Source: Vicinamibacterales bacterium (GTDB lineage: Bacteria > Acidobacteriota > Vicinamibacteria > Vicinamibacterales > UBA2999). From it: a stretch of 53,808 nucleotides of DNA. Below, piece by piece: positions 6,750 through 48,848 of this stretch; positions within the stretch are counted from its first letter, which is position 1, and each line of letters opens with the position of its first letter. Both the position numbers and the translations under genes were made by a program. The notes under the pieces were generated by a model. That model had not been told where the DNA came from. It worked only from the letters and a program-made list of their open reading frames with translations, and did no database searches. The stretch lies in assembly GCA_030680175.1 (NCBI GenBank), contig JAUXWO010000109.1, positions 1 to 53,808 on the forward strand, read 5' to 3'.

Positions 6750-6881
6750 ACGTACAAACACGAAGGACACGAAGGCCACGAAGACGTACGAAACGGCTCT
6801 TTCGAGATCCGGTATCGAACCTGAGATCCCTGGAGACGTTCGTATTTCTTCGTGTCCTTCGTGTCCTTCGTGTTTGTACGT
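6750..6881. mobile_element. CACGAAGG-type inverted-repeat element, copy 1 (132 bp)
   Basis: The ends are near-perfect inverted repeats of about 34 bp beginning ACGTACAAACACGAAGG. Each arm is made of 9-bp units (CACGAAGGN). The interior holds GATCCGGT facing GAACC, a motif pair seen in other copies. It fills the gap between two convergent genes, 4 bases after one stop and 21 before the other. No coding capacity. Confidence 0.85.
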
Positions 6882-20501: not shown

Positions 20502-22703
20502 GTGAGCCGCCGGGGCAGTGCGCGGTCGGACGGCCGGAGAACGGGACCCAACGCGGCCAGTGCGCCTCCGTCTGGGACCCGTGCGCCAGCCACGCCGTCA
20601 CGCGGCCGGAGCGTCGCGACGGTCGTTGCCGCCGCGCTGGCCGTCAAGGCCACCGTACTGGTCCAGCTCGGCGGACACCCGCTACTCCAGCCCCTGGGAG
20701 AACTCGACACCGCCTTCTATGTCGACCTGGCGCGGCAGGTGGCGGACTCGGGCCCTCTGGCCCTGGCCGAGCCGTTCTTCGTGTCACCGTTGTACGTCTA
20801 CTTCCTGGCCGGCGTGTTCGCGCTGGGCGGGTCGCTGACGGCGGTGCGAACGATCCAGATCGTGCTCGGCGCCATGGCCGTTGGCCTGCTGTTCGTGACG
20901 ACTCGCCATTGGTTCGGCGACCGCGCGGCCTGGATCGCGGCGGCCCTCGCTATCCTCACCGGACTCTTCACCTTCTACGAGATCCTTATCCTGCAGGCCG
21001 CCCTCGACCCGTTCCTGGTCTCGCTGACGCTGGCACTCGTCTCTCGGTCCCTCGCGTCGGCAAGTCACCGGTGGCCTCTTGCCGCGGGGGCGGCTGCCGG
21101 TCTGCTCGCCCTCAACCGTCCGAACGCGCTCGCGTATGGCGTTGTCGCCGGGTTGGGGCTCGCGATTCGCGAGTGGCGTGCGGGCACGACGATCCCCCGG
21201 GCGTTTGGCCGTGCCCTCGTGTTTCCCGCAGCGCTGCTCCTTGTGCTCGGCGCGAGCGGTCTGCGCAACTACGCCGCCTCCGGCGAGTGGATCGCCATCT
21301 CGTCGCACGGCGGCCTCAATTTCTACATCGGAAATCACGCCGGCGCCGACGGCACCTACCGCCCCGTTCCCGGTATCTCTGCGTCGATCGCCGGTCAGGC
21401 GCATGACGCGGCGCGGGTGGCGGAGACGGCGCTCGGCCGGCGCCTGTCGGCCGCCCAGGTGTCCGACTACTTCTACGCACAGGCGCTGGACTGGATCGGG
21501 CGCAACCCGCTCGATGCAGCGCGGCTGTTCGCCTGGAAGTCAGCGCTGGTCGTGAATCGGGCGAACGTGCCCCTCAACTTCAGCTACGCCTACTACAGCC
21601 AGGACGAGTCCTCCCTCCTCCGCGGCCTCATCGTCGGCCCCTGGCTCATCGTGCCGCTCGGACTCGTGGGGCTCTTCGTGCGATCGGCGCGCAGGACCGG
21701 ATCCGGTTTCTGGATCTGGGCATCGTTCGTTCCCCTCTACGGACTGTCGATCGCCCTGTTCTTCGTGACGTCGCGGTACCGCATGCCCCTGCTGCTCCCC
21801 CTGTGCGCGCTGGCGGCCGCGGCGCTGGTGTGGGGATTCGATCAGGTGCGCGCGCGGCGCGGCGCAGTAGTCCTGCGATTCGCGTTGGCGCTGGTTGCCG
21901 GGGCCGCGCTGGTCAACTGGCCACTCGGGCTCGACGACGGGCGCTGGTTCGAACAGACGCGGCAGGCCGTCTGGCTGGTCGAGAAGGGCCGGGGCGACGC
22001 GGCGCGAGCCTACGTCGCGCAGCTCGCTCCGGGCCACTCGCACCCGGGGCTGCTCCACTACCGCGTCGGCCGAGCGCTCGCCGCCACGAACCGGTTCGAC
22101 GACGCAATCGAGCAGTTCCGGCTGTCTCTGACCGTCGATCCCGGCGAGCTCGCGACCCGGCTCGAACTCGGCCAGGCGCTCACGGTGATCGGGCTCGCCG
22201 CCGACGCGGTGCCCCATCTGGCCGCGGCCCTCGAGGGCAGACACCGAGCGGAAGTCGCAGCGCCGTGGCTCGTACGCGCCCTCGTGGCGGCTGGCGATCG
22301 CGAGCGGGCGGTGGCCCTGCTGGCCACCCTTCCGGAAGCCATCGCGGCGCCCAGAGCCGACACCGCTCTGGACCTGGGGACGATGGCCCTCGAACTCGAC
22401 GCGCCCACGCGGGCCGAGCGCTGGCTCCGCCTGGCGGTGACGACGGAACCGGCGCGTGCCGAAGCGCACGAGAAGCTGGGGGTCGCGCTGCTCCTGCAGG
22501 ACCGTGTGGGCGACGCCATCGGACCACTCGAGACCGCCTGCCGGCTGGATGCCTCGAGCGCCAGCGCACGCTTGAACCTGGCGGCCACCTACGCACGCGC
22601 GGGCCGCGTGGAGGAGGCGCGAAGCGAGGCCCGGGAGGCGCTCCGTCTGGACCCGGGCGAGCCACGGGCCGCGGCGCTGTTGCGGGCGCTGGGCCCTGGG
22701 TAG
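20502..22703 (+). CDS. GT39-like membrane glycosyltransferase with C-terminal TPR region
   Basis: A 733-aa protein starting at GTG 20502. Residues 1-40 are basic and Ser/Pro-rich; a first membrane helix covers about 38-55. The next loop has GELDTAFYVDLARQ, the luminal acidic motif of PMT/ArnT-type (GT39) enzymes. About ten membrane segments follow to residue 470 (WIAAALAILTGLFTFYE, IVPLGLVGLFV, LALVAGAALVNW). From about 500 to the end are TPR-like repeats (DAIEQFRLSLTVDPGELATR, LEEARSEAREALRLDPGE style). It probably transfers sugars from lipid carriers in the membrane. Acceptor unknown. Convergent with the TonB receptor gene across a terminator. Confidence 0.8.
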   Translation: MSRRGSARSDGRRTGPNAASAPPSGTRAPATPSRGRSVATVVAAALAVKATVLVQLGGHPLLQPLGELDTAFYVDLARQVADSGPLALAEPFFVSPLYVYFLAGVFALGGSLTAVRTIQIVLGAMAVGLLFVTTRHWFGDRAAWIAAALAILTGLFTFYEILILQAALDPFLVSLTLALVSRSLASASHRWPLAAGAAAGLLALNRPNALAYGVVAGLGLAIREWRAGTTIPRAFGRALVFPAALLLVLGASGLRNYAASGEWIAISSHGGLNFYIGNHAGADGTYRPVPGISASIAGQAHDAARVAETALGRRLSAAQVSDYFYAQALDWIGRNPLDAARLFAWKSALVVNRANVPLNFSYAYYSQDESSLLRGLIVGPWLIVPLGLVGLFVRSARRTGSGFWIWASFVPLYGLSIALFFVTSRYRMPLLLPLCALAAAALVWGFDQVRARRGAVVLRFALALVAGAALVNWPLGLDDGRWFEQTRQAVWLVEKGRGDAARAYVAQLAPGHSHPGLLHYRVGRALAATNRFDDAIEQFRLSLTVDPGELATRLELGQALTVIGLAADAVPHLAAALEGRHRAEVAAPWLVRALVAAGDRERAVALLATLPEAIAAPRADTALDLGTMALELDAPTRAERWLRLAVTTEPARAEAHEKLGVALLLQDRVGDAIGPLETACRLDASSASARLNLAATYARAGRVEEARSEAREALRLDPGEPRAAALLRALGPG

Positions 22704-22770
22704 CGTGCCGTCGCGGCGTTCGGGGCTGCGGCCGGCCTTGGCGGATGCGCCCGCCGCGTGAAACGAAAAC

Positions 22771-22798
22771 GCCGCCGGGCTCTCGCAAGCCCGGCGGC
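22771..22798 (-). terminator. Rho-independent terminator of the TonB receptor gene
   Basis: An 11-bp GC stem (GCCGCCGGGCT/AGCCCGGCGGC) with a short loop. On the minus strand it is followed by CGTTTTCGTTTC, a T-rich tract, 25 bases after the receptor stop. It may also stop plus-strand transcription from the GT39 gene, although there the tract is absent. Confidence 0.8.
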
Positions 22799-22822
22799 GC
22801 CTGATCGAACGCGCGCGATTCC

Positions 22823-25800
22823 CTAGAAACGAACGACCGCGGTCAGCTGGACCTGACGAGCCGGCTGTCGATTGCGCATCTGCAGGAAGTTCGGGCTCCA
22901 GCTCTGGTACGCGCTGTTGTAGCTGTACTGCGTGAAGGCGCCGCCGTTGAGCAGGTTGAAGACGTTGCCGGCGATCTCGACGTTGCGGTCCCTCCCGAGG
23001 CCGATCCTCTTCCCGATCTTCAGTCCCACGGTGTGAATCGCCGGCGCCTGCACCTGACCCTCACCGCGATCGCCGTAGAGGTACCGGTTGCGCGTGGACA
23101 GCGGGTTCGAGAACGTCCGTCCCCCCGGGGACGTGAACGTCGTCGGGCCGTGTCTGGTGATGTCGGGATGACCCGCCGGGAGCTGATAGAGGACCGCCCC
23201 CGACCAGGGGCCCGCCTGCGCCGTATAGCTGCCCGCGAAGGTCACGCCCCACGGCCCAAGCCACGAGCCGGCGATGTTGACCCGGTACTTCATCCAGGTC
23301 GGCCCGTAGCTCAGCGCGTTGCCAGTCTCGGGCAGGCTGTTCCGGTCGTTGTTGCCGCGCGGCATGTACAGGTTCGCGTTGTTCGCAAAGGCTTCCGGCT
23401 GGATGTAGCCCGCCTTGTCTTCCGGGTTCCAGGTGCCGGCCATGTGGTGCCACTGCCGGTTGAACCCCGCCATCAGCTGGAAGTTGTGCGACATGTTCTT
23501 CGCCACCGTCACTTCCAACGCGCGGTACTCGAGCGTGGACCACGTGTTGTTGGTCTGCTGCTCGACCTCGCCCCGCTCCGGATCGATCCGCCCGAAGCCG
23601 CCAAAGGGCTGGCCCGGCGCTGATGGCCAGAAGCCGTTGATCTCGCGGAGCGCCCACATGTGCTTGTAGCTGCGCGAGATGAACCCGACATCCAGGCTCG
23701 TCTGGAACGGGAACTGCCGACGGTAGCCGACGATCCACTCGTCCACCCATGGCTGGTGGTTGTCCGGATCGAACTCCTGGCCGGCGAGCGTCGGCGTGGA
23801 CGCCGCCGAGAACCGCTCGGTCTCGAAGACGCCGTCCAGGTTGTTGTCGTAGAGGGTCCGGAGGTTGACCGAGCCGCTGCCGCCGAAGCTCGTGATGGCG
23901 TCGCGACCCATCATCTGCTCGCCCACGCGCACCCAGGTGCCGCGCAGCACGTTTCGCGCGTCCTCGGTCAGCAGGTACGACATGCCGAAGCGCGGCTGGA
24001 TGGTCCAGGAGTTCTGGCGGGTGATGTCGAAGATCAGATCCTCGCGCTTGACCCAGTCGGCGCGCACGCCGAGGTTGAGGGTCAGCCGGTTGTTCGGCTT
24101 CCAGTTGTCCTGAAGGTAGAACGCCCAGTTCTGATCGCGCGCGGTGCGTGTGGCGATCTGGATCGGGTCCGCGTAGTAGCGACGGAACGGCACGGTCCCG
24201 AGCGACGGGTTGCTGTAATCGACCGGCACCCGGTGTTCCTGGTAGAAGCCGTCGTTGGTGTACCGCGTGTTCGTGTCGTACACGTTCCGCGGCTGGATGA
24301 AGAAGCCGGTCTGGAACTCGTGCGACCCCCGCCAGCCCGCCCTGAACCAGGTGATGTCGCCGCGGATCAGCGTGACCGATGCCGGCGCGATCCCCTCCGT
24401 GGCGCGGTTCCCCCCCTCGAGAATGAGCCCGCTTCCCGTGATGAGGCCGCTGGCGATCCGGGTGTCCTGATAGATCTGGGTGTTCGGCCCCTGCCCCTGG
24501 TGGATGGTGTTCAGCCAGTCGAACGTGTCCTGGCTGTTGGACCCCTTGTCGTTGTAGCCCACCAGGAACGTCGTCGTCAGCGCGTTTCCCCAGACGGAGG
24601 ACAACTTGCTGCTGTAGAGGTTCCCGCCGTTCCCGTAGCCGTTGACCTGATCGTAGAAGTACTCCCAGTTCGACTGTCCGTTGGTCCGGTCGTTCTGGTA
24701 GAGGGCCGACAGCTCATGGGCGTTCCCCAGCCGGGAGGTGACCTTCACGTAGGGCTGCGTCCCTTCGATCTTCTGGTTGAAGAGCGTCCGGCCGGGGAAG
24801 AACGACTGGATGTCGTCCACCTGCTTGTCGATCCGGCTGATCGCCGTCTCCACGTCCGACCAGCGGTACGCGGCAAAGAACCAGATCTGGTCCCGCTTGA
24901 TCGGCCCGCCGAACGACCCGTCGAACTGCTTCACGCCGGACAGCACCGGCACGCCGCCGGTCGACACGCACTCGCCGTTCGGGCAGGTGGAGTGCGCGAG
25001 AATCTCCGACGGCAGCTTGAACACCGTCCTCGCCGTCGAGTTGTCACCGTTCAGGCCCGAGTCGAGCGGCTGGAATGCGTAGCCCGAGGTGCCCCGGAAG
25101 GCGTTGCCGCCGCTCTTCGTGATCACGTTGATGGCCAGACCCGTCCCCATCGGCGTGGACGCATCCACGCCGCCCGTCTTCGTCTGGACGTCCTGGATCA
25201 TGTCCGAGCCCATCTGCACGTAGGTGAGCTGGAAGTCGTTGTAGTTGCCCGCCTGCATGCCCTCCAGATTCGCCACGTGCGCGAAGTGCTCCGTGGCGTG
25301 CCCGAAGTACACCATTCGCCCCGACCCGTCGTCGAAGGGACGGGAGTGCACGCCCGGCGTCATCTCGAGGAAATCGGTCCAGTTCTTCCGCGCCGCGAGC
25401 GGCATCTGCTTCTGGAACTCGCCGTCGATGTTCAGCACGTTCGACGGGTTCGTCACCTCGATCATCGGCGAGTCGCCCGACACCGTGATGGTCTCCGTCA
25501 GCGTGCCGAGCTCCATCGTGATGTCGACCTGGAATGTCGCGCCGGCGCGAACCAGGAGCCCCTCACGATGAAAGACCGAGAAGCCGGTGAGCTCCGCGGT
25601 GAGCGTGTAGGTGCCCGGCCGGACGTTGATCAGACGGTAGGTCCCGTCCACCTCGGTGACGGCCACGACCGGCGCCAGGACGTCCGGACTCGTGGCCGTG
25701 ACGGTCACGCCGGGCAACGCACCGCCCTGGGCATCCTTCACCGTTCCTCGCAAGCCCCCCGCACCCGTTTGGGCCAGCGCAGCACTCGCGCAGGCCAGCG

Positions 25801-31257: not shown

Positions 31258-31302
31258 ACGGACAAACACGAAGGTCACGAAGAAACGAAGGACGCACGAA
31301 GG
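31258..31302. mobile_element. CACGAAGG-type element, copy 2 (left arm only)
   Basis: The left arm only (ACGGACAAACACGAAGG onward, with CGAAGAAACGAAGGACGCACGAAG). Downstream at 31310 is GGATCCGGTG facing CCACCGG, the inner motif of the family. There is no right arm, so this is a decayed copy. With copy 3 it flanks the MBL hydrolase gene, both left arms in the same orientation. Confidence 0.7.
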
Positions 31303-31376: not shown

Positions 31377-32345
31377 GTGTCGTCCTCACGCCGTTTTCTG
31401 AACCGCCGCACGTTTCTCGCCGCCGGCACACTCGGCACCGTCGGCGGCGTCGCGTGGGCCAGCACGTCCTCGTCCTGGTATGCGCGCTTCCTTCGTGAGC
31501 GCGCCGCGGAGTTCGGCCGCGAGCTGCCGCCGGCGCCGCATACCCCGGCGCCGCTGTCGTGGTCCGACAGCGAGGTCACGCTGGCCTGGCTCGGCCATGC
31601 GACGGTGCTCATCAATTTCTACGGCGTCCGCATCATCACGGACCCCACCCTCTTCCCGCGCATCGGCGTGGACCTCGGGCTCGGCACGCTCGGCCCCCTG
31701 CGCCTGGTCGCCTGCGCGCTGACGGCCGACGAGCTGCCCGAGCTGGACCTCGTCCTCGTCTCGCACGCGCACTTCGACCACCTCGACACCCCGTCGCTCG
31801 GGTCCGTGCGCGGCCGCCCCGCCGCCGTGATGGCGCCGGAGACCTCGGACCTGCTCCCGCGCCGCCACTACTCGTCCGTGCACGAACTGCGCTGGGACGA
31901 GTCAGCCCGGATCGCCACGCCGCGCGGGGAGGTGCTGGTGCGCGCCATCGAGGTGAAGCACTGGGGCGCGCGCATCCGCCGCGACACGCACCGCGGCTGG
32001 GCCGGCTTCATCGTGGAACGCGAAGGCCGGCGCCTGCTCATCGGCGGCGACACGGCCGACACGCCCGTGTTCCGCAACTACCGCCGCTATGGCCCGTTCG
32101 ACGCCGCGGTGATGCCGGTGGGCGCCTACGATCCGTGGATAAGGAATCACTGCACGCCGGAGCAGGCGGTGGCGATGGCGACCGCCGCCAACGCGCGCCT
32201 CTTCGTCCCGGTGCACCACCAGTCGTTCGACCTGAGCCGCGAGCCCTTCATGGAGCCCATCGAGCGCACCCAGGAAGCGCTGGCGCAGGAAGCCGACCGG
32301 CTCGCCATCAGGGAGCTCGGCCAGACGATCGTGGTGCCGGGCTAG
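31377..32345 (+). CDS. Tat-exported MBL-fold metallo-hydrolase (UlaG/NAPE-PLD-like)
   Basis: A 322-aa protein starting at GTG 31377. The N-terminus has a twin-arginine signal (LNRRTFLAAGTLGTVGG). The metallo-beta-lactamase fold follows: WLGHATVLINFYG, LVSHAHFDHLD (HxHxDH zinc motif), IEVKHWG, LIGGDTADT (Asp ligand), and a late VPVHHQSFDLS. The pattern matches the UlaG/NAPE-PLD branch, which hydrolyses phosphodiesters or lactones. The exported location is unusual for that branch but seen in related proteins. Flanked by copies 2 and 3 of the CACGAAGG element. Confidence 0.85.
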   Translation: MSSSRRFLNRRTFLAAGTLGTVGGVAWASTSSSWYARFLRERAAEFGRELPPAPHTPAPLSWSDSEVTLAWLGHATVLINFYGVRIITDPTLFPRIGVDLGLGTLGPLRLVACALTADELPELDLVLVSHAHFDHLDTPSLGSVRGRPAAVMAPETSDLLPRRHYSSVHELRWDESARIATPRGEVLVRAIEVKHWGARIRRDTHRGWAGFIVEREGRRLLIGGDTADTPVFRNYRRYGPFDAAVMPVGAYDPWIRNHCTPEQAVAMATAANARLFVPVHHQSFDLSREPFMEPIERTQEALAQEADRLAIRELGQTIVVPG

Positions 32346-32369: not shown

Positions 32370-32589
32370 ACGGACAAACACGAAGGCCACGAAGAAACGA
32401 AGGACGCACGAAGAACACTCCAAATCACGGATCCGGTTCGGAACCGGATCGTTGAATTGAGAAACGTTCTTCGTGTCGTCTTCGTGGCCTTCCCGCCTCC
32501 GCTCGCCTCAGGCTCGAGCGAGCTTCTGCGAGGTCACGCCGTAGCGGCCTCCGGCCGCGGAGGCGGACGTGTTCTTCGTGTTTGTACGT
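32370..32589. mobile_element. CACGAAGG-type element, copy 3 (220 bp)
   Basis: Left arm with 9-bp units; centre a perfect hairpin (GATCCGGTT-CG-GAACCGGATC); right arm of about 115 bp shared with copies 5 and 6 (from CGTGGCCTTCCCGCC to TTCGTGTTTGTACGT). The right arm contains further stems (GCTCGC/GCGAGC and GCGGCC-TCC-GGCCGC). It fills the 253-base gap between the MBL gene and the convergent neuB-like gene. No coding capacity. Confidence 0.85.
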
Positions 32590-39079: not shown

Positions 39080-39167
39080 ACGTACAAAACACGAAGGACA
39101 CGAAGGCCACGAAGGGTCTCCAATTGGATACGTCTTCGTGACCTTCGTGTCCTTCGTGTTTGTACGT
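39080..39167. mobile_element. CACGAAGG-type element, copy 4 (88 bp)
   Basis: The shortest complete copy. Left arm ACGTACAAAACACGAAGG with further CACGAAGG units; right arm its mirror image ending CCTTCGTGTTTGTACGT; centre of about 20 bases. It would form one long hairpin. It lies between yraN and the end of the aminotransferase gene (25 bases from its stop). Confidence 0.85.
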
Positions 39168-44603: not shown

Positions 44604-45440
44604 ATGCGCGATCCCGGCCCCGCCTTCGAACGCCTCGTCCAGATCATGCGCGCGCTGCGCGCGCCCGGCGGCTGCCCGTGGGACCGGGAGCAGACGCTCG
44701 CGTCGCTGCGGCCGTTCGTGCTCGAGGAAACCTACGAGCTGCTCGAGGCCATCGACCACGACGACATGGCGTCGCTCCGCGAGGAGCTTGGCGACTTCCT
44801 GTACGAGGCCGTGTTCCTCGCGCAGATCGCCGAGGAGGCCGGGCACTTCTCCATCAGCGACGCCGTCCACGGCATCGCCGACAAGCTCGTGCGCCGCCAC
44901 CCGCACGTCTTCACGCCCGACGGCACGCCGCTCGCCGATGCCGCCCCCCGCATCAGCACCGGCGAGGTGGTGCGCAAGTGGGAGGATCTCAAGGCGGACG
45001 AGCGCGGCGCGGCCGGCCGCCCGGATCGCACGATCCTCTCCGGCGTCCCCAGGGCGCTGCCGTCGCTGCTGCGCGCCTACGAGCTCAGCGCGCGCGCCGC
45101 GGCGGTGGGCTTCGACTGGGTCGAGCCGGCCCAGGTGCTCGACAAGATCGAGGAGGAACTCGCGGAGCTGCGGGAGGCAGTCGCCTTGCACGGCGCCGGC
45201 TCCGCGCGCGCCGAAGATGAACTCGGGGACGTCTTCTTCGCGATGGCGAATCTCGCCCGCAAGCTCGGCCAGGAACCGGAAGCCGCGCTGCGGATGGCGA
45301 ACGACAAGTTCCAGCGGCGATTCGACTGGATGGAACGCACCGCCCGCACCGAAGGCCTGGCGCTCAAGGACCTGACGCTGGACGCACTGGAAGCCCTCTG
45401 GGTCAGAGCCAAAGATGCCCTCGCCAGCGATCTCCCCTGA
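44604..45440 (+). CDS. mazG: Nucleoside triphosphate pyrophosphohydrolase MazG
   Basis: A 278-aa all-alpha NTP pyrophosphatase that removes pyrophosphate from (non-canonical) NTPs. Two MazG repeats: PGGCPWDREQTLASLRPF with EETYELLEAI and ELGDFLYEAVFLAQIAEE (ExxE...ExxD magnesium site), then RALPSLLRAYELSARAAAVG with ELAELREAV and DELGDVFFAMANLARKLG. C-terminus MERTARTEGLALKDLTL is standard. A GxxExxY-bearing repeat element begins 2 bases after the stop. Confidence 0.94.
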   Translation: MRDPGPAFERLVQIMRALRAPGGCPWDREQTLASLRPFVLEETYELLEAIDHDDMASLREELGDFLYEAVFLAQIAEEAGHFSISDAVHGIADKLVRRHPHVFTPDGTPLADAAPRISTGEVVRKWEDLKADERGAAGRPDRTILSGVPRALPSLLRAYELSARAAAVGFDWVEPAQVLDKIEEELAELREAVALHGAGSARAEDELGDVFFAMANLARKLGQEPEAALRMANDKFQRRFDWMERTARTEGLALKDLTLDALEALWVRAKDALASDLP

Positions 45441-45442
45441 TC

Positions 45443-46022
45443 ACGTACAAAACACGAAGGACACGAAGGCCACGAAGGCCACGAAGGCCATGGGTCACAA
45501 CACAACCCTGCGGATTCCATCCTTCATCCACCGTACGTTGAAGTCCATCAACAGGCCCACCCCGAGGCCCGTTGCCTTCAGGTACGACACCACCTGGCTG
45601 ACATGCACCGGCTGAAGACGATCGACCGCTTTCAGTTCGAGAAGCACGCACTGCTCGACGACGAGATCCAGCCGCGGGCCCTGAATCGGGTAGTCCTTGT
45701 ACGTGATCTTCAGGGGCTGCTCACACGCATAGCTCATGCCTCTTAGCTCCAGTTCGATCTGGAAGGCGCGTTGGTACACGCTCTCCAGATACCCGGGGCC
45801 GAAGTGCGTGTGTACCTCGATGGCACATCCGATGGCGGCCTGCACGATTCGCTCGGTCGCGGCGGGAAGTGTTGAGATGGTCCTATCAAGCACGGCGCCC
45901 TCCCTATTGAGCCTTCGTGGCCTTCCCGCCTCCGCTCGCCTCAATACCAGGCGAGCTTCGGCGAGGTCCCGCCGTAGCGGCCTCCGGCCGCGGAGGCGGA
46001 CGTGATCTTCGTGTTTGTACGT
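45443..46022. mobile_element. CACGAAGG-type element, copy 5 (580 bp), carrying a nuclease-like gene
   Basis: Left end ACGTACAAAACACGAAGG with four CACGAAGG-type units. The interior holds a complete GxxExxY gene on the minus strand. The right arm, from CTTCGTGGCCTTCCCG (about 45915) to TTCGTGTTTGTACGT, is shared with copies 3 and 6 and includes stems GCTCGCCT/AGGCGAGC and GCGGCC/GGCCGC. The other copies look like deletion derivatives without the gene. Its right arm also encodes the end of comEC. Confidence 0.85.
45495..45893 (-). CDS. GxxExxY protein (PD-(D/E)xK nuclease-like)
   Basis: A 132-aa protein starting at GTG 45893 behind GGGAGGG. The eponymous motif is G34-YL-E37-SV-Y40 in HFGPGYLESVYQRAF. 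Then ELELRGMSYACEQPL, and the nuclease-like core RLDLVV (Asp 76) and LLELKAV (Glu 86, Lys 88). It ends with VGLLMDFNV. The family is assigned to the PD-(D/E)xK superfamily and its activity is not established as far as I know. It lies wholly inside an inverted-repeat element whose gene-less relatives are scattered around, so it may act on that element. Confidence 0.88.
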   Translation of the reverse strand: MLDRTISTLPAATERIVQAAIGCAIEVHTHFGPGYLESVYQRAFQIELELRGMSYACEQPLKITYKDYPIQGPRLDLVVEQCVLLELKAVDRLQPVHVSQVVSYLKATGLGVGLLMDFNVRWMKDGIRRVVL

Positions 46023-48475
46023 GACCGCGCGCGCTGCGCGAACGTGGACACCTCCACCGTCTGACCGTCGGTGGTGATGTCGATCTGGCCGTGCAGGTCG
46101 GTGCGGTACACGGGGATGCGGCGATCCCGGTAGCGGGACAGGACCGCCGGGGCGGGGTGGCCGTAGTGATTCGTCCGGCCTACGCCGATGAAGGCGGCCG
46201 CGGGACGAAGATGGTCCAGCAGCGCGTCGCTGCTCGAGGTGTTGCTGCCGTGGTGCGGCACCTTGAGGACCACCAGCGGGGCGGGGTCGATCCACGGGAG
46301 CAGATCGCGCTCCACCTCGCGGCCGATGTCCCCGGTCAGGACGAAGGCCACGTCGCCGTGCCGGATCTCGAGCACCATCGAGTCGTCATTCCTCACCTGC
46401 TGCCGCTCCCAGTCCGGGAGCGGCGGATGGAGCACGCGCACCGCGACACCATCGATCGCGATCACGTCACCACGCTGAACCTGCCGCCACGGCGCCCCCG
46501 CGCGCACGGCCTCGGCGCCGAGGGCCATCGCCAGGGTGTCGCGCGGGACGGGCACGCCCTCCCACACCTCCCGCGCGCCGAAGTCGCGGAGGATGCGTGC
46601 GAGGCCGCCCGCATGGTCCGGATGGCCGTGGCTGATGGCGAGGTAGTCGAGCCGGCCGACGCCGCGCGCCCGCAGCGCCGGCCCGACGATGCGGTCGCCG
46701 ATGTCGAAGGCGTCGCCGGAGGCGAGGCCGCCGGCGTCCAGGAGCAGGCGCGTCCCGCGCGGGAACGTCACGAGCATGGCGTCCCCCTGCCCCACATCGA
46801 TCATCGTCACGTGCAGCCGGCCGTCGCCGGTGACACGCCAGAGTCCAGGTGGAAGGACGATGACGACGCCGAGGAGCAGGAGCGCTGGCGGCGCCAGGCG
46901 TCGCGCGGGCCACGGACGGCGCCGTGCGAGGCCGGGACGCCAGGACCACACCGAGACGGCCAGCGCCACGTAGTAGGCCGCGATCGTCCACGCGGCCGGC
47001 GCCGCGACGCGCCACGAGAGCCAGGGCCAGGCGTCCACGAGGCGCGCGCTGTCGAGCAGCCCCCGCGCGGCCCAGTCGGTGGCCAGCGCCGCGACATCCG
47101 CGGCGCCGCCCCAGACGAGGTCGAGCACGACGACCGCCATCGCGCCGAGTTGCACGGCCGTCATGCAGGGGATGGCGATGAAATTGAGTGCGAGGCCCGC
47201 GACGGTCACGCGCTCGAACACCGCGGCGCCGATGGGCGTGAGCGCCACCTCCGAGCAGACCGAGGCCAGCCACAGGCCCGCGGGCGCGGCCAGCCACCAC
47301 CGTGCCGGCCATCGCACCCACGCGGCGCCCAGGACGATCGCGGTCGTCGCGCCGAACGTGAGCCAGAAACCCACATCGAAGACGGTGAGCGGCGCGGCCA
47401 GCAGCAGCAGGATGGCCGTGAGCACGATGGCATTCACCGCGGCCGTGCGCTGATCGATGAGCCGCACCGCGAGGTAGATGACGGCCATCACGGTGGCGCG
47501 TGTCACCGACGGCCCGCCGCCGGTGAGGAAGGCGTAGCCGACGAGGCCCGCGATCGTCACCACCGTCGCGACCCGCCCACGCAAGCCGGCCAGCCCCAGG
47601 ACGCCGAAGGCGAGGGCGGCAAGGATCGCGATGTTGCCCCCGCTGATCGCGATGACGTGATACGTCCCGGCCTCCTGCAGGCGGCGCGAGGTCTCGACAT
47701 CGAGCCCCGCCCGGTCGCCAATCAGGATCGCCGCGGCCACGGCGCGTGTCAGCGGGGGATCGCTGCCCTGCCCGATGCGCATCAGCGCGCGGCGGCTGCG
47801 CGCCCGCACCAGGGCGGCGGCTTCGTCGAGCCAGTGGCCACGGGCGTGGACCGTGACGAGGTGCCCGCTCTTGACGCTCCCGACCAGCGTGATGCCGCGT
47901 CGCGCCAGCTGTCGCTCCTGATCCGGCACGCCGTCATTCCGGTAGGTCGTGGGACGCCGCAGCAGCGCGGGGACGCGCACGATGCGGCCCGCCGTCCACG
48001 CGTGCATCAGCGCCGGCGCCTCGGTGCCCGCGACGGTGAGGGCGACGCCGCCCGCCACCGGCTCCGGGCAGGTGCCGGGCCAGAGCCGGAGCGCCTCGAG
48101 CCGGAGCTGCACGCCTGAAGCGCCAGGTGACGCGTCGAAGACGAGCCGGCCCTCGAGCAGCATCGGCTCCGCCACGCGCCGCGGAGGCGTGCCGATCGCA
48201 AAGCCGCCGACGCGTGCCTCGAGCAGCGCCCGAATGGGGGGATGAAGCGCGCGCTGTGCCTGGTCCGCGCCGAGCAGCCAGCCGGCGGCCAGCGCGCCGG
48301 CCACGACCGCCGCGACGGTCGTCCGGGAATACCGCAGGTGGAAAGCGCCGGCGGCGGCCGCCCAGGCGGCGATCAGCAGGAGCCAGGCGGGAAGCGTGAC
48401 GCTCGCACCGGAGAGCGCCCCGGCCGCGAGGCCGGCCACCAGCGCCACGAGGACGGGAAGCAGGACGGTGCCCAT
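45941..48475 (-). CDS. comEC: DNA internalization competence protein ComEC/Rec2
   Basis: An 844-aa membrane protein that forms the inner-membrane channel for single-stranded DNA uptake in transformation. N-terminal membrane helices and a DUF4131-like OB region come first. The Competence domain follows, with HVIAISGGNIAILAAL and FLTGGGPSVTRATVMAVIY. The C-terminal MBL domain has MIDVGQGDAMLVTFPRG, AISHGHPDHAGGLAR (HxHxDH) and VLKVPHHGSNTSSSDALL. The last 26 residues (RTNTKITSASAAGGRYGGTS and on) and the stop are encoded by the right arm of the inverted-repeat element at 45443-46022, so the native C-terminus was replaced. Confidence 0.93.
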   Translation of the reverse strand: MGTVLLPVLVALVAGLAAGALSGASVTLPAWLLLIAAWAAAAGAFHLRYSRTTVAAVVAGALAAGWLLGADQAQRALHPPIRALLEARVGGFAIGTPPRRVAEPMLLEGRLVFDASPGASGVQLRLEALRLWPGTCPEPVAGGVALTVAGTEAPALMHAWTAGRIVRVPALLRRPTTYRNDGVPDQERQLARRGITLVGSVKSGHLVTVHARGHWLDEAAALVRARSRRALMRIGQGSDPPLTRAVAAAILIGDRAGLDVETSRRLQEAGTYHVIAISGGNIAILAALAFGVLGLAGLRGRVATVVTIAGLVGYAFLTGGGPSVTRATVMAVIYLAVRLIDQRTAAVNAIVLTAILLLLAAPLTVFDVGFWLTFGATTAIVLGAAWVRWPARWWLAAPAGLWLASVCSEVALTPIGAAVFERVTVAGLALNFIAIPCMTAVQLGAMAVVVLDLVWGGAADVAALATDWAARGLLDSARLVDAWPWLSWRVAAPAAWTIAAYYVALAVSVWSWRPGLARRRPWPARRLAPPALLLLGVVIVLPPGLWRVTGDGRLHVTMIDVGQGDAMLVTFPRGTRLLLDAGGLASGDAFDIGDRIVGPALRARGVGRLDYLAISHGHPDHAGGLARILRDFGAREVWEGVPVPRDTLAMALGAEAVRAGAPWRQVQRGDVIAIDGVAVRVLHPPLPDWERQQVRNDDSMVLEIRHGDVAFVLTGDIGREVERDLLPWIDPAPLVVLKVPHHGSNTSSSDALLDHLRPAAAFIGVGRTNHYGHPAPAVLSRYRDRRIPVYRTDLHGQIDITTDGQTVEVSTFAQRARSRTNTKITSASAAGGRYGGTSPKLAWY

Positions 48476-48599: not shown

Positions 48600-48848
48600 C
48601 CGTACAAACACGAAGGTCACGAAGGCCACGAAGACACTCGATTGAACGATCCGGTAGCGGTCAGCGAGGAACATGTGCGCCATGGGCATCCTCGCGCCAA
48701 CGGTCCGGTGGCGGTTACCGGATCCGTAGCGAATCGTCCTTCGTGGCCTTCCCGCCTGCGCTCGCCTCAATACCAGGCGAGCTTCGGCGAGGTCACGCCG
48801 TAGCGGCCTCCGGCCGCGGAGGCGGACGTGACCTTCGTGTTTGTACGT
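48600..48848. mobile_element. CACGAAGG-type element, copy 6 (249 bp)
   Basis: Left arm CCGTACAAACACGAAGG; interior of about 100 bases bounded by the inverted pair GATCCGGTA/TACCGGATC; right arm shared with copies 3 and 5. It ends one base before the carB stop codon. It takes up most of the 374-base gap between comEC and carB; the remaining 48476-48599 shows no gene or clear signal. Confidence 0.85.

Follow-up and report, generated by a model that had tools for sequence, protein, structure and literature searches.

The window analysed here, a stretch of 53,808 nucleotides, is contig C22 of the genome of a Vicinamibacterales bacterium (4.98 Mb in 143 contigs), which is referred to below as the source genome. 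A GxxExxY gene of 132 codons, starting with GTG and with AGGGAGG ahead of the start codon, lies there between a MazG-like gene and a ComEC-like frame (Table 1). The gene, strand and coordinates reported in the first-pass annotation were correct, as were the arms described as bracketing the gene. The encoded protein matched TIGR04256 with an E value of 2.3e-36 and 124.7 bits (curated cut-off 35) and is therefore a member of this family, and PF13366 (E 2.9e-36, 124.8 bits, curated cut-off 22) was the sole matching family in a Pfam search. The arms of the source genome terminate at ACG[T/G]ACAAA; the terminal sequence of the right arm of the gene-bearing element is CTTCGTGTTTGTACGT, and the final codons of the ComEC-like frame fall inside this arm. 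A search of the window for known RNA families at gathering scores returned two tRNAs only.

Table 1. Coordinates of the gene-bearing element, its neighbours and the gene-less copies in the window
Feature	Position	Strand	Description
MazG-like gene	44604-45440	(+)	Adjoins the element; named from reading the sequence
Left arm	45443..45487	(+)	Terminal ACGTACAAAA, then four CACGAAGG words spaced 9 bases
GxxExxY gene, 132 aa	45495..45893	(-)	Predicted PD-(D/E)XK nuclease fold; D76, E86, K88, Q100 and Y104 present
Right arm	45912..46022	(-)	CCTTCGTG, then the ~85-base inserted repeat, then ATCTTCGTGTTTGTACGT
~85-base GC-rich palindromic repeat	45920..46004		Nested in the right arm; found by eye; also in copies 3 and 6
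ComEC-like frame	45941-48475	(-)	Convergent with the MazG-like gene; named from reading the sequence
Copy 1	6750..6881		Gene-less, both arms
Copy 2	31258..31302		Left half, without right terminus
Copy 3	32370..32589		Gene-less, both arms, nested repeat in right arm
Copy 4	39080..39167		Gene-less, both arms, long hairpin
Copy 6	48600..48848		Gene-less, both arms, nested repeat in right arm

The PD-(D/E)xK signature that had been read from D76 and E86-x-K88 was borne out, since all three residues, together with Q100 and Y104, were invariant in alignments of 10 and 30 sequences. D, ExK and QxxxY are motif names of Cas4/RecB-type nucleases, and Cas4 has an iron-sulphur site with four cysteines. 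None of the 20 invariant columns of the 30-member alignment was cysteine; C43 was nearly invariant and is replaced by alanine in the window protein. The AlphaFold2 model of the window protein had a mean pLDDT of 94.2 and a predicted fold of the restriction-endonuclease-like type. The best Foldseek matches were all weak (lambda exonuclease, AdnAB, LHK-Exo and AddAB), with no match at E ≤ 0.001 and with a weak match to the catalytic domain of I-Bth0305I (E 0.4). A second structural comparison gave SSO0001, which we take to be a Cas4, as the best match (Z 9.3, 98 residues, 3.2 Å). The placement near Cas4 is tentative because the structural matches also included, at Z 5.5-7.2, an fdxN excision controlling factor, type II restriction enzymes and Holliday-junction resolvases. 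The Pfam Cas4 model matched 22 of the 30 family members weakly at E ≤ 1 (best 0.0015), the window protein not being among them, and the sequence search against solved structures gave a best E of 0.68. From the D, ExK and QxxxY motifs, which are shared with the Cas4/RecB/lambda-exonuclease branch, and from the structural matches, of which the best has a modest Z, the protein is tentatively placed near the RecB/Cas4 branch of the PD-(D/E)XK nucleases. Unlike Cas4, it comprises only 132 residues and has no conserved iron-sulphur cysteines. A defence gene was considered as well and rejected, the only match being a weak one to AbiEii (E 0.049).

Dispersed copies in the source genome

In the window, the left end ACGTACAAANCACGAAGG occurred exactly at 39080 and 45443, with 0.05 occurrences expected at up to 3 mismatches, and CACGAAGG occurred 25 times against 2.04 expected, a number reached in 0 of 100 shuffles. 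Five shorter, gene-less copies with the same terminal arms had been proposed for the window. Four of these have both arms, but the fifth (~31258-31302) is a left half only, because the CCTTCGTG near 31490 is without the terminal TTTGT. The constancy of the ends held for the right end, which reads TTTGTACGT in every one of the five complete copies, the gene-bearing one (copy 5) among them, but not for the left terminal 9-mer, which is ACGTACAAA at 6750, 39080 and 45443, CCGTACAAA at 48600 and ACGGACAAA at 32370 and 31258. When treated as single DNA strands, copies 1 and 4 folded far better than 200 shuffled sequences (z -12.2 and -11.2). Copies 3, 5 and 6 contain the extra repeat of ~85 bases within the right arm (32487-32571, 45920-46004 and 48746-48830), which was also seen at L199, L204 and L215 and may either mark a sub-family or belong to a third family of repeats.

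For the whole source genome, the tandem arm pattern CACGAAGRNCACGAAG gave 389 matches (205 forward, 184 reverse), compared with 0 for the reversed-pattern control, and a single GxxExxY gene was found. Of the 389 places 100 were listed, and 20 stretches were fetched, some of which gave no end pair. Most copies in these stretches share the end type and have highly variable interiors, the shortest (L209) being a bare palindrome; they occupy many sites and are mostly without a GxxExxY gene. The gene is flanked by palindromic repeats that are also dispersed across the same genome, as is the case for REP-RAYT systems.

The terminal inverted repeats of the source-genome copies are sharp. In 23 end pairs, some of which have an end in common, three of the four final bases (ACG) had a left/right identity of 0.91-0.96, compared with 0.65 for the T/G base and 0.22 immediately outside the ends. 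No target site duplication was found for these 23 pairs, the best score being no better than for shuffled pairings, and their outer flanks had no clear common sequence. Two arrangements seen among the fetched stretches are recorded here. At L200 (G000:C6:8500-9900) a gene-less CACGAAG copy lies, as judged by eye, within the loop of a palindrome of the AGTGGGT type and looks like a nested insertion; AGTGGGT is the word class beside one IVP gene of the source genome. At L207 (G000:C18:9200-10800) about four left arms follow each other in tandem at a spacing of ~103 bases and have one common right end.

Arms and arrays in other genomes

GxxExxY genes above the family cut-off were present in 28 of the 59 genomes searched, the source genome included. 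Arms were scored as inward arrays of CRCNRAG, a word defined after these arms had been seen, with a neighbouring word 7-11 bases away. Two sets of loci were used. The cross-phylum set consisted of the best 80 of at least 576 confirmed candidates, chosen by similarity to four proteins of the order and thus not at random, and 79 loci were testable after L168 had been left out for its short flank. The same-order set consisted of 50 loci, from which L030 and L031 (no tblastn hit) and L053 (short flank) were left out to give 47; seven fragment rows from four places of the same-order search were left out of the fetched loci. The cross-phylum loci include Planctomycetota, Verrucomicrobia, Chloroflexota, Acidobacteria, Bacteroidetes, several proteobacterial groups, cyanobacteria and archaea.

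Inward arrays within 250 bp were found on at least one side of 72 of the 79 cross-phylum loci and on both sides of 45, with 7 loci having none on either side and far flanks giving 0/58. For the same-order loci the corresponding numbers were 30/47 and 22/47 (far flanks 0/44). Outward arrays on both sides, counted as orientation control, were present at 7/79 and 1/47 loci, respectively. The proposal that such arms also flank the GxxExxY genes of other genomes is supported when an arm is taken to be an array of CRCNRAG words rather than CACGAAGG alone. The commonest words were CACGAAG (124), CACAGAG (124), CACGGAG (65), CGCAGAG (61) and CACAAAG (35), mostly at a spacing of 8-10, and arms outside the definition (AACGGAGG, GCAGATTA and CAGGAG) occurred at some same-order loci. 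A word-free inverted-repeat score between the flanks exceeded 35 in 72 of 126 loci, with 0/98 for far flanks, and did not exceed it in the other 54; the cross-phylum share was 37/79 (far pairs 0/57). The 47 same-order loci had a mean score of 54 versus 22.6 for 41 far pairs (flanks 700 bases further out), the highest score among the far pairs being 35.

The number of dispersed arrays was compared with gene presence in 197 genomes of the phylum, requested at a completeness of at least 90, of which 76 carried the GxxExxY gene and 121 did not. An excess was defined as at least 3 triple arrays of 9-base spacing above the reversed-pattern control, the gene's own arms being counted. It was observed in 42 of the 76 gene-bearing and in 3 of the 121 gene-less genomes (Fisher 2e-18), the remaining 34 gene-bearing genomes having no excess of arrays so spaced. 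Within the 15 families that include both states, the excess was present in 35/64 gene-bearing versus 2/38 gene-less genomes, which was reached in 0 of 20000 within-family shuffles. In the order (58 genomes), at least 5 tandem arms were found in 21 of 28 genomes with and 5 of 30 without the gene, where "with" denotes a match at E 0.001 and one of the 28 is under the family cut-off. The arrays in the 3/121 and 5/30 genomes could reflect gene loss or incomplete assembly. CACGAAG arrays were commoner where the gene has CACGAAG arms than where it has other arms at only p 0.04 (13 and 15 genomes). Overall, there is good support for an association between the nuclease gene, word-array arms and dispersed copies.

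GxxExxY copy number varies from one in the source genome to 21 matches in G138 and 19 in G120. With one query protein at E 1e-5, there were 0 matches in 50,697 phage records and 8 in 72,556 plasmid records, hence phages and plasmids do not commonly carry GxxExxY. In Gemmatirosa kalamazoonensis (L220) the GxxExxY gene has a gene-less palindrome made up of CGCAGAGG words on either side, and in Sphingomonas parapaucimobilis (L221, NZ_CP155749.1) the gene is flanked by fabD and fabG and has CGCGAAGG-like words upstream of it. Gene-less and gene-bearing elements of the same word lie ~2.5 kb apart at L185 and L034 (G024:C4:20018-20121 and 22639-23308). At L008, L009 and L013, three GxxExxY elements with other words directly follow a gene whose product, as read by eye, seems to end in ..TFPLIP[EQ]E.. 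and resembles a DNA methylase; this is a possible second recurrent site.

The MazG-ComEC site itself was inspected at 30 MazG loci. A GxxExxY element is located between the two genes at six loci from six genera (L169, L177, L182, L184, L189, L190), and at eleven loci the genes are at most 157 bases apart or overlap. Two loci have a gene-less element directly after MazG (L181, L185), four have ~400-490 coding-looking bases between the genes, two have a longer gap in which neither arms nor a gene could be clearly discerned (L179, L196), and the remaining five were uninformative. In genus g10 the site is filled in G030, empty in G009 and reduced to one arm in G025, and in genus g15 it is filled in G027 and empty in G014. 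Filled, half and empty states within genera indicate that the unit is acquired or lost en bloc. The comparison of relatives proposed earlier thus yielded all three states at one orthologous site, but not base-exact empty sites, as the species are too distant.

The repeated occupation of one orthologous site would fit a homing-like element, in which the empty allele is cleaved by the nuclease and receives the element through repair; the predicted small stand-alone nuclease and its weak fold match to I-Bth0305I point the same way. Such an element is nevertheless highly improbable, given that copies are found at many sites of one genome, those examined being mostly without the gene, and that the flanks of the 23 end pairs share no clear sequence. 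The occupation of this site in six genera, the strong hairpin folding and the position of the window element between convergent genes are likewise compatible with regulatory or structural hairpins, i.e. host palindromes such as terminators, attenuators or supercoiling sites that are inherited vertically, that surround this gene to control its expression and whose arms are kept alike by slippage and template switching. The tracking of GxxExxY presence by array number over the 197 genomes, the sharp ends, the filled and empty states within a genus and the CACGAAG copy that by eye occupies the loop of a different palindrome (L200) argue against this explanation, which we regard as unlikely.

Word type, protein lineage and IVP genes

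The words of the left and right arms resemble each other within a locus, with a word distance of 0.30 versus 1.41 between loci (67 loci). For 89 of the 128 loci, namely those that had enough words, protein distance correlated with word distance (Mantel r 0.24, and 0.23 after removal of the GC difference; 0 of 2000 permutations reached either value), and the majority word was shared by 35 of 89 nearest protein neighbours versus 14.7 expected. Arm and gene travel together. On a tree, the fifth word base changed 14 times versus at least 19 times with shuffled labels and the fourth 24 versus at least 26 times; the second base changed 17 times, which equals the shuffled minimum of 17, so that its clustering did not exceed that of the best shuffle. 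The covariation of word and protein may be due to shared descent alone. Residues 14 and 17, whose classes were picked after the data had been seen, seemed tied to the word in greedy pairs (18:1 and 20:0), and codon 14 is located mostly outside the arms, at a median of 34 bases from the last word and at less than 6 bases at 6 loci. This residue-level specificity was rejected: path-disjoint tree pairs gave 4:0 for word base 5 and 4:3 for word base 4 at residue 17, and 3:0 and 3:2 at residue 14, other columns performed equally well, and the signal is mostly shared descent.

Analogous arms were found around IVP genes (TIGR02436, four-helix-bundle proteins, not nucleases) of the same order, for which 30 loci from the search and three more of the five loci of the source genome were used. 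The inverted-repeat score exceeded 35 in 23 of the 30 loci and in 0 of 26 far flanks. The arms again consist of iterated words, mostly with a period of 7 or 14 (AGTGGGT, GGGATTC, AGTCAGG, CAGTTTT and others; L055-L084, L085-L088), and four of the five source-genome loci were examined, each having a different word. As these genes do not encode nucleases, such an architecture needs no nuclease within the element, which speaks against the nuclease as the mobiliser. Either each of the two proteins in some way serves the arms of its own class, or both classes are spread by one host process.

The IVP arms lend weight to a model in which GxxExxY, like IVP, is trapped cargo and the arms are spread by another enzyme, such as a Y1/RAYT-like protein acting in trans, or by host replication and repair. 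Three Y1 transposase matches in the source genome and the few genomes with arms in which no GxxExxY gene was found also accord with it. Against this, the word class tracks the gene family, CRCNRAG arrays being present on both sides of 0/30 and on either side of 1/30 IVP loci, and Y1 loci are without such arms within 500 bp (both sides 0/30, one side 1/30). Moreover, the relation of arm abundance to Y1 presence (21/41 with, 5/17 without, p 0.16) was not significant, whereas that to GxxExxY was. Y1/RAYT as the mobiliser is disfavoured by the arm-free loci and this non-significant co-occurrence, and the cargo model as a whole appears rather doubtful, yet less so than regulatory hairpins.

Proposed mechanism and comparison with known systems

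The favoured reading is that gene and arms probably, although by no means certainly, form one element that is run in a REP-RAYT-like manner by a Cas4-like nuclease, with the gene-less copies as its non-autonomous derivatives. The PD-(D/E)XK nuclease would recognise the word array, probably with the arms folded out as a single-stranded hairpin, and would cut or trim the arms at their base. The hairpin unit would then be copied to other places by replication or repair in the host, and this hairpin-mediated copying would also hold the two arms alike. Overall, the mode of action would parallel that of REP-RAYT although the enzyme is unrelated, cutting and movement of the element being inferred. 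More tentatively, the elements may represent a bacteria-wide, self-dispersing class with a minimal Cas4-like nuclease, an iterated 7-base word, spread by hairpins and co-diversification of word and nuclease, alongside a second class that is built around the IVP gene and whose arms follow the same logic.

In REP-RAYT systems, a palindromic repeat both flanks the enzyme gene and is scattered in many copies, with inverted pairs forming hairpins and with repeat and enzyme lineages diversifying together (PMC3116915, PMC3733652). The elements analysed here resemble REP/REPIN-RAYT systems and TIRtrons in the nuclease-type gene, the genome-wide scatter of the flanking repeat, the hairpin-forming inverted pairs and the joint diversification. 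They differ in that the enzyme is a predicted PD-(D/E)XK nuclease instead of an HUH/Y1 transposase, that the arms are CRCNRAG arrays ending in ACG[T/G]ACAAA instead of GTAG- or CGTC-tagged palindromes, and perhaps in copy number, each REP-RAYT enzyme gene being a single copy and some genomes having many GxxExxY copies. With MITEs and TIR transposons they share sharp ends and short gene-less copies that have the same terminal inverted repeats as the gene-bearing copy. Unlike in MITEs, no transposase, DDE or other, is found between the arms in the window, where the enclosed gene is PF13366, no target duplication was found, the interiors are very variable and the arms are made of iterated words. 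The 23S rRNA intervening-sequence (IVP) genes are likewise short genes in inverted-repeat elements with iterated-word arms in genomes of the same order, but with an unrelated protein, other word sequences and a word period of mostly 7 or 14 versus 8-9. By the features tested, the element is not a member of the REP-RAYT, MITE or Cas4 systems. No description of these arms was found in the open PubMed Central papers searched, and they may be noted elsewhere. The nuclease gene between word-array arms, the scatter of gene-less arms around the genome and the recurrence of this arrangement in many unrelated bacteria suggest an undescribed kind of self-spreading DNA element.

If the favoured reading is true, it would provide a function for the GxxExxY family, which occurs in many phyla and is almost absent from the open literature searched, and it would account for one class of the repeat words that lie between genes of environmental bacteria. 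DNA would in this case be dispersed by a nuclease with no conventional transposase, and the varying words with their matching nucleases make recognition directly testable. Through the IVP parallel, the old question of how rRNA intervening-sequence genes spread would become newly testable as well.
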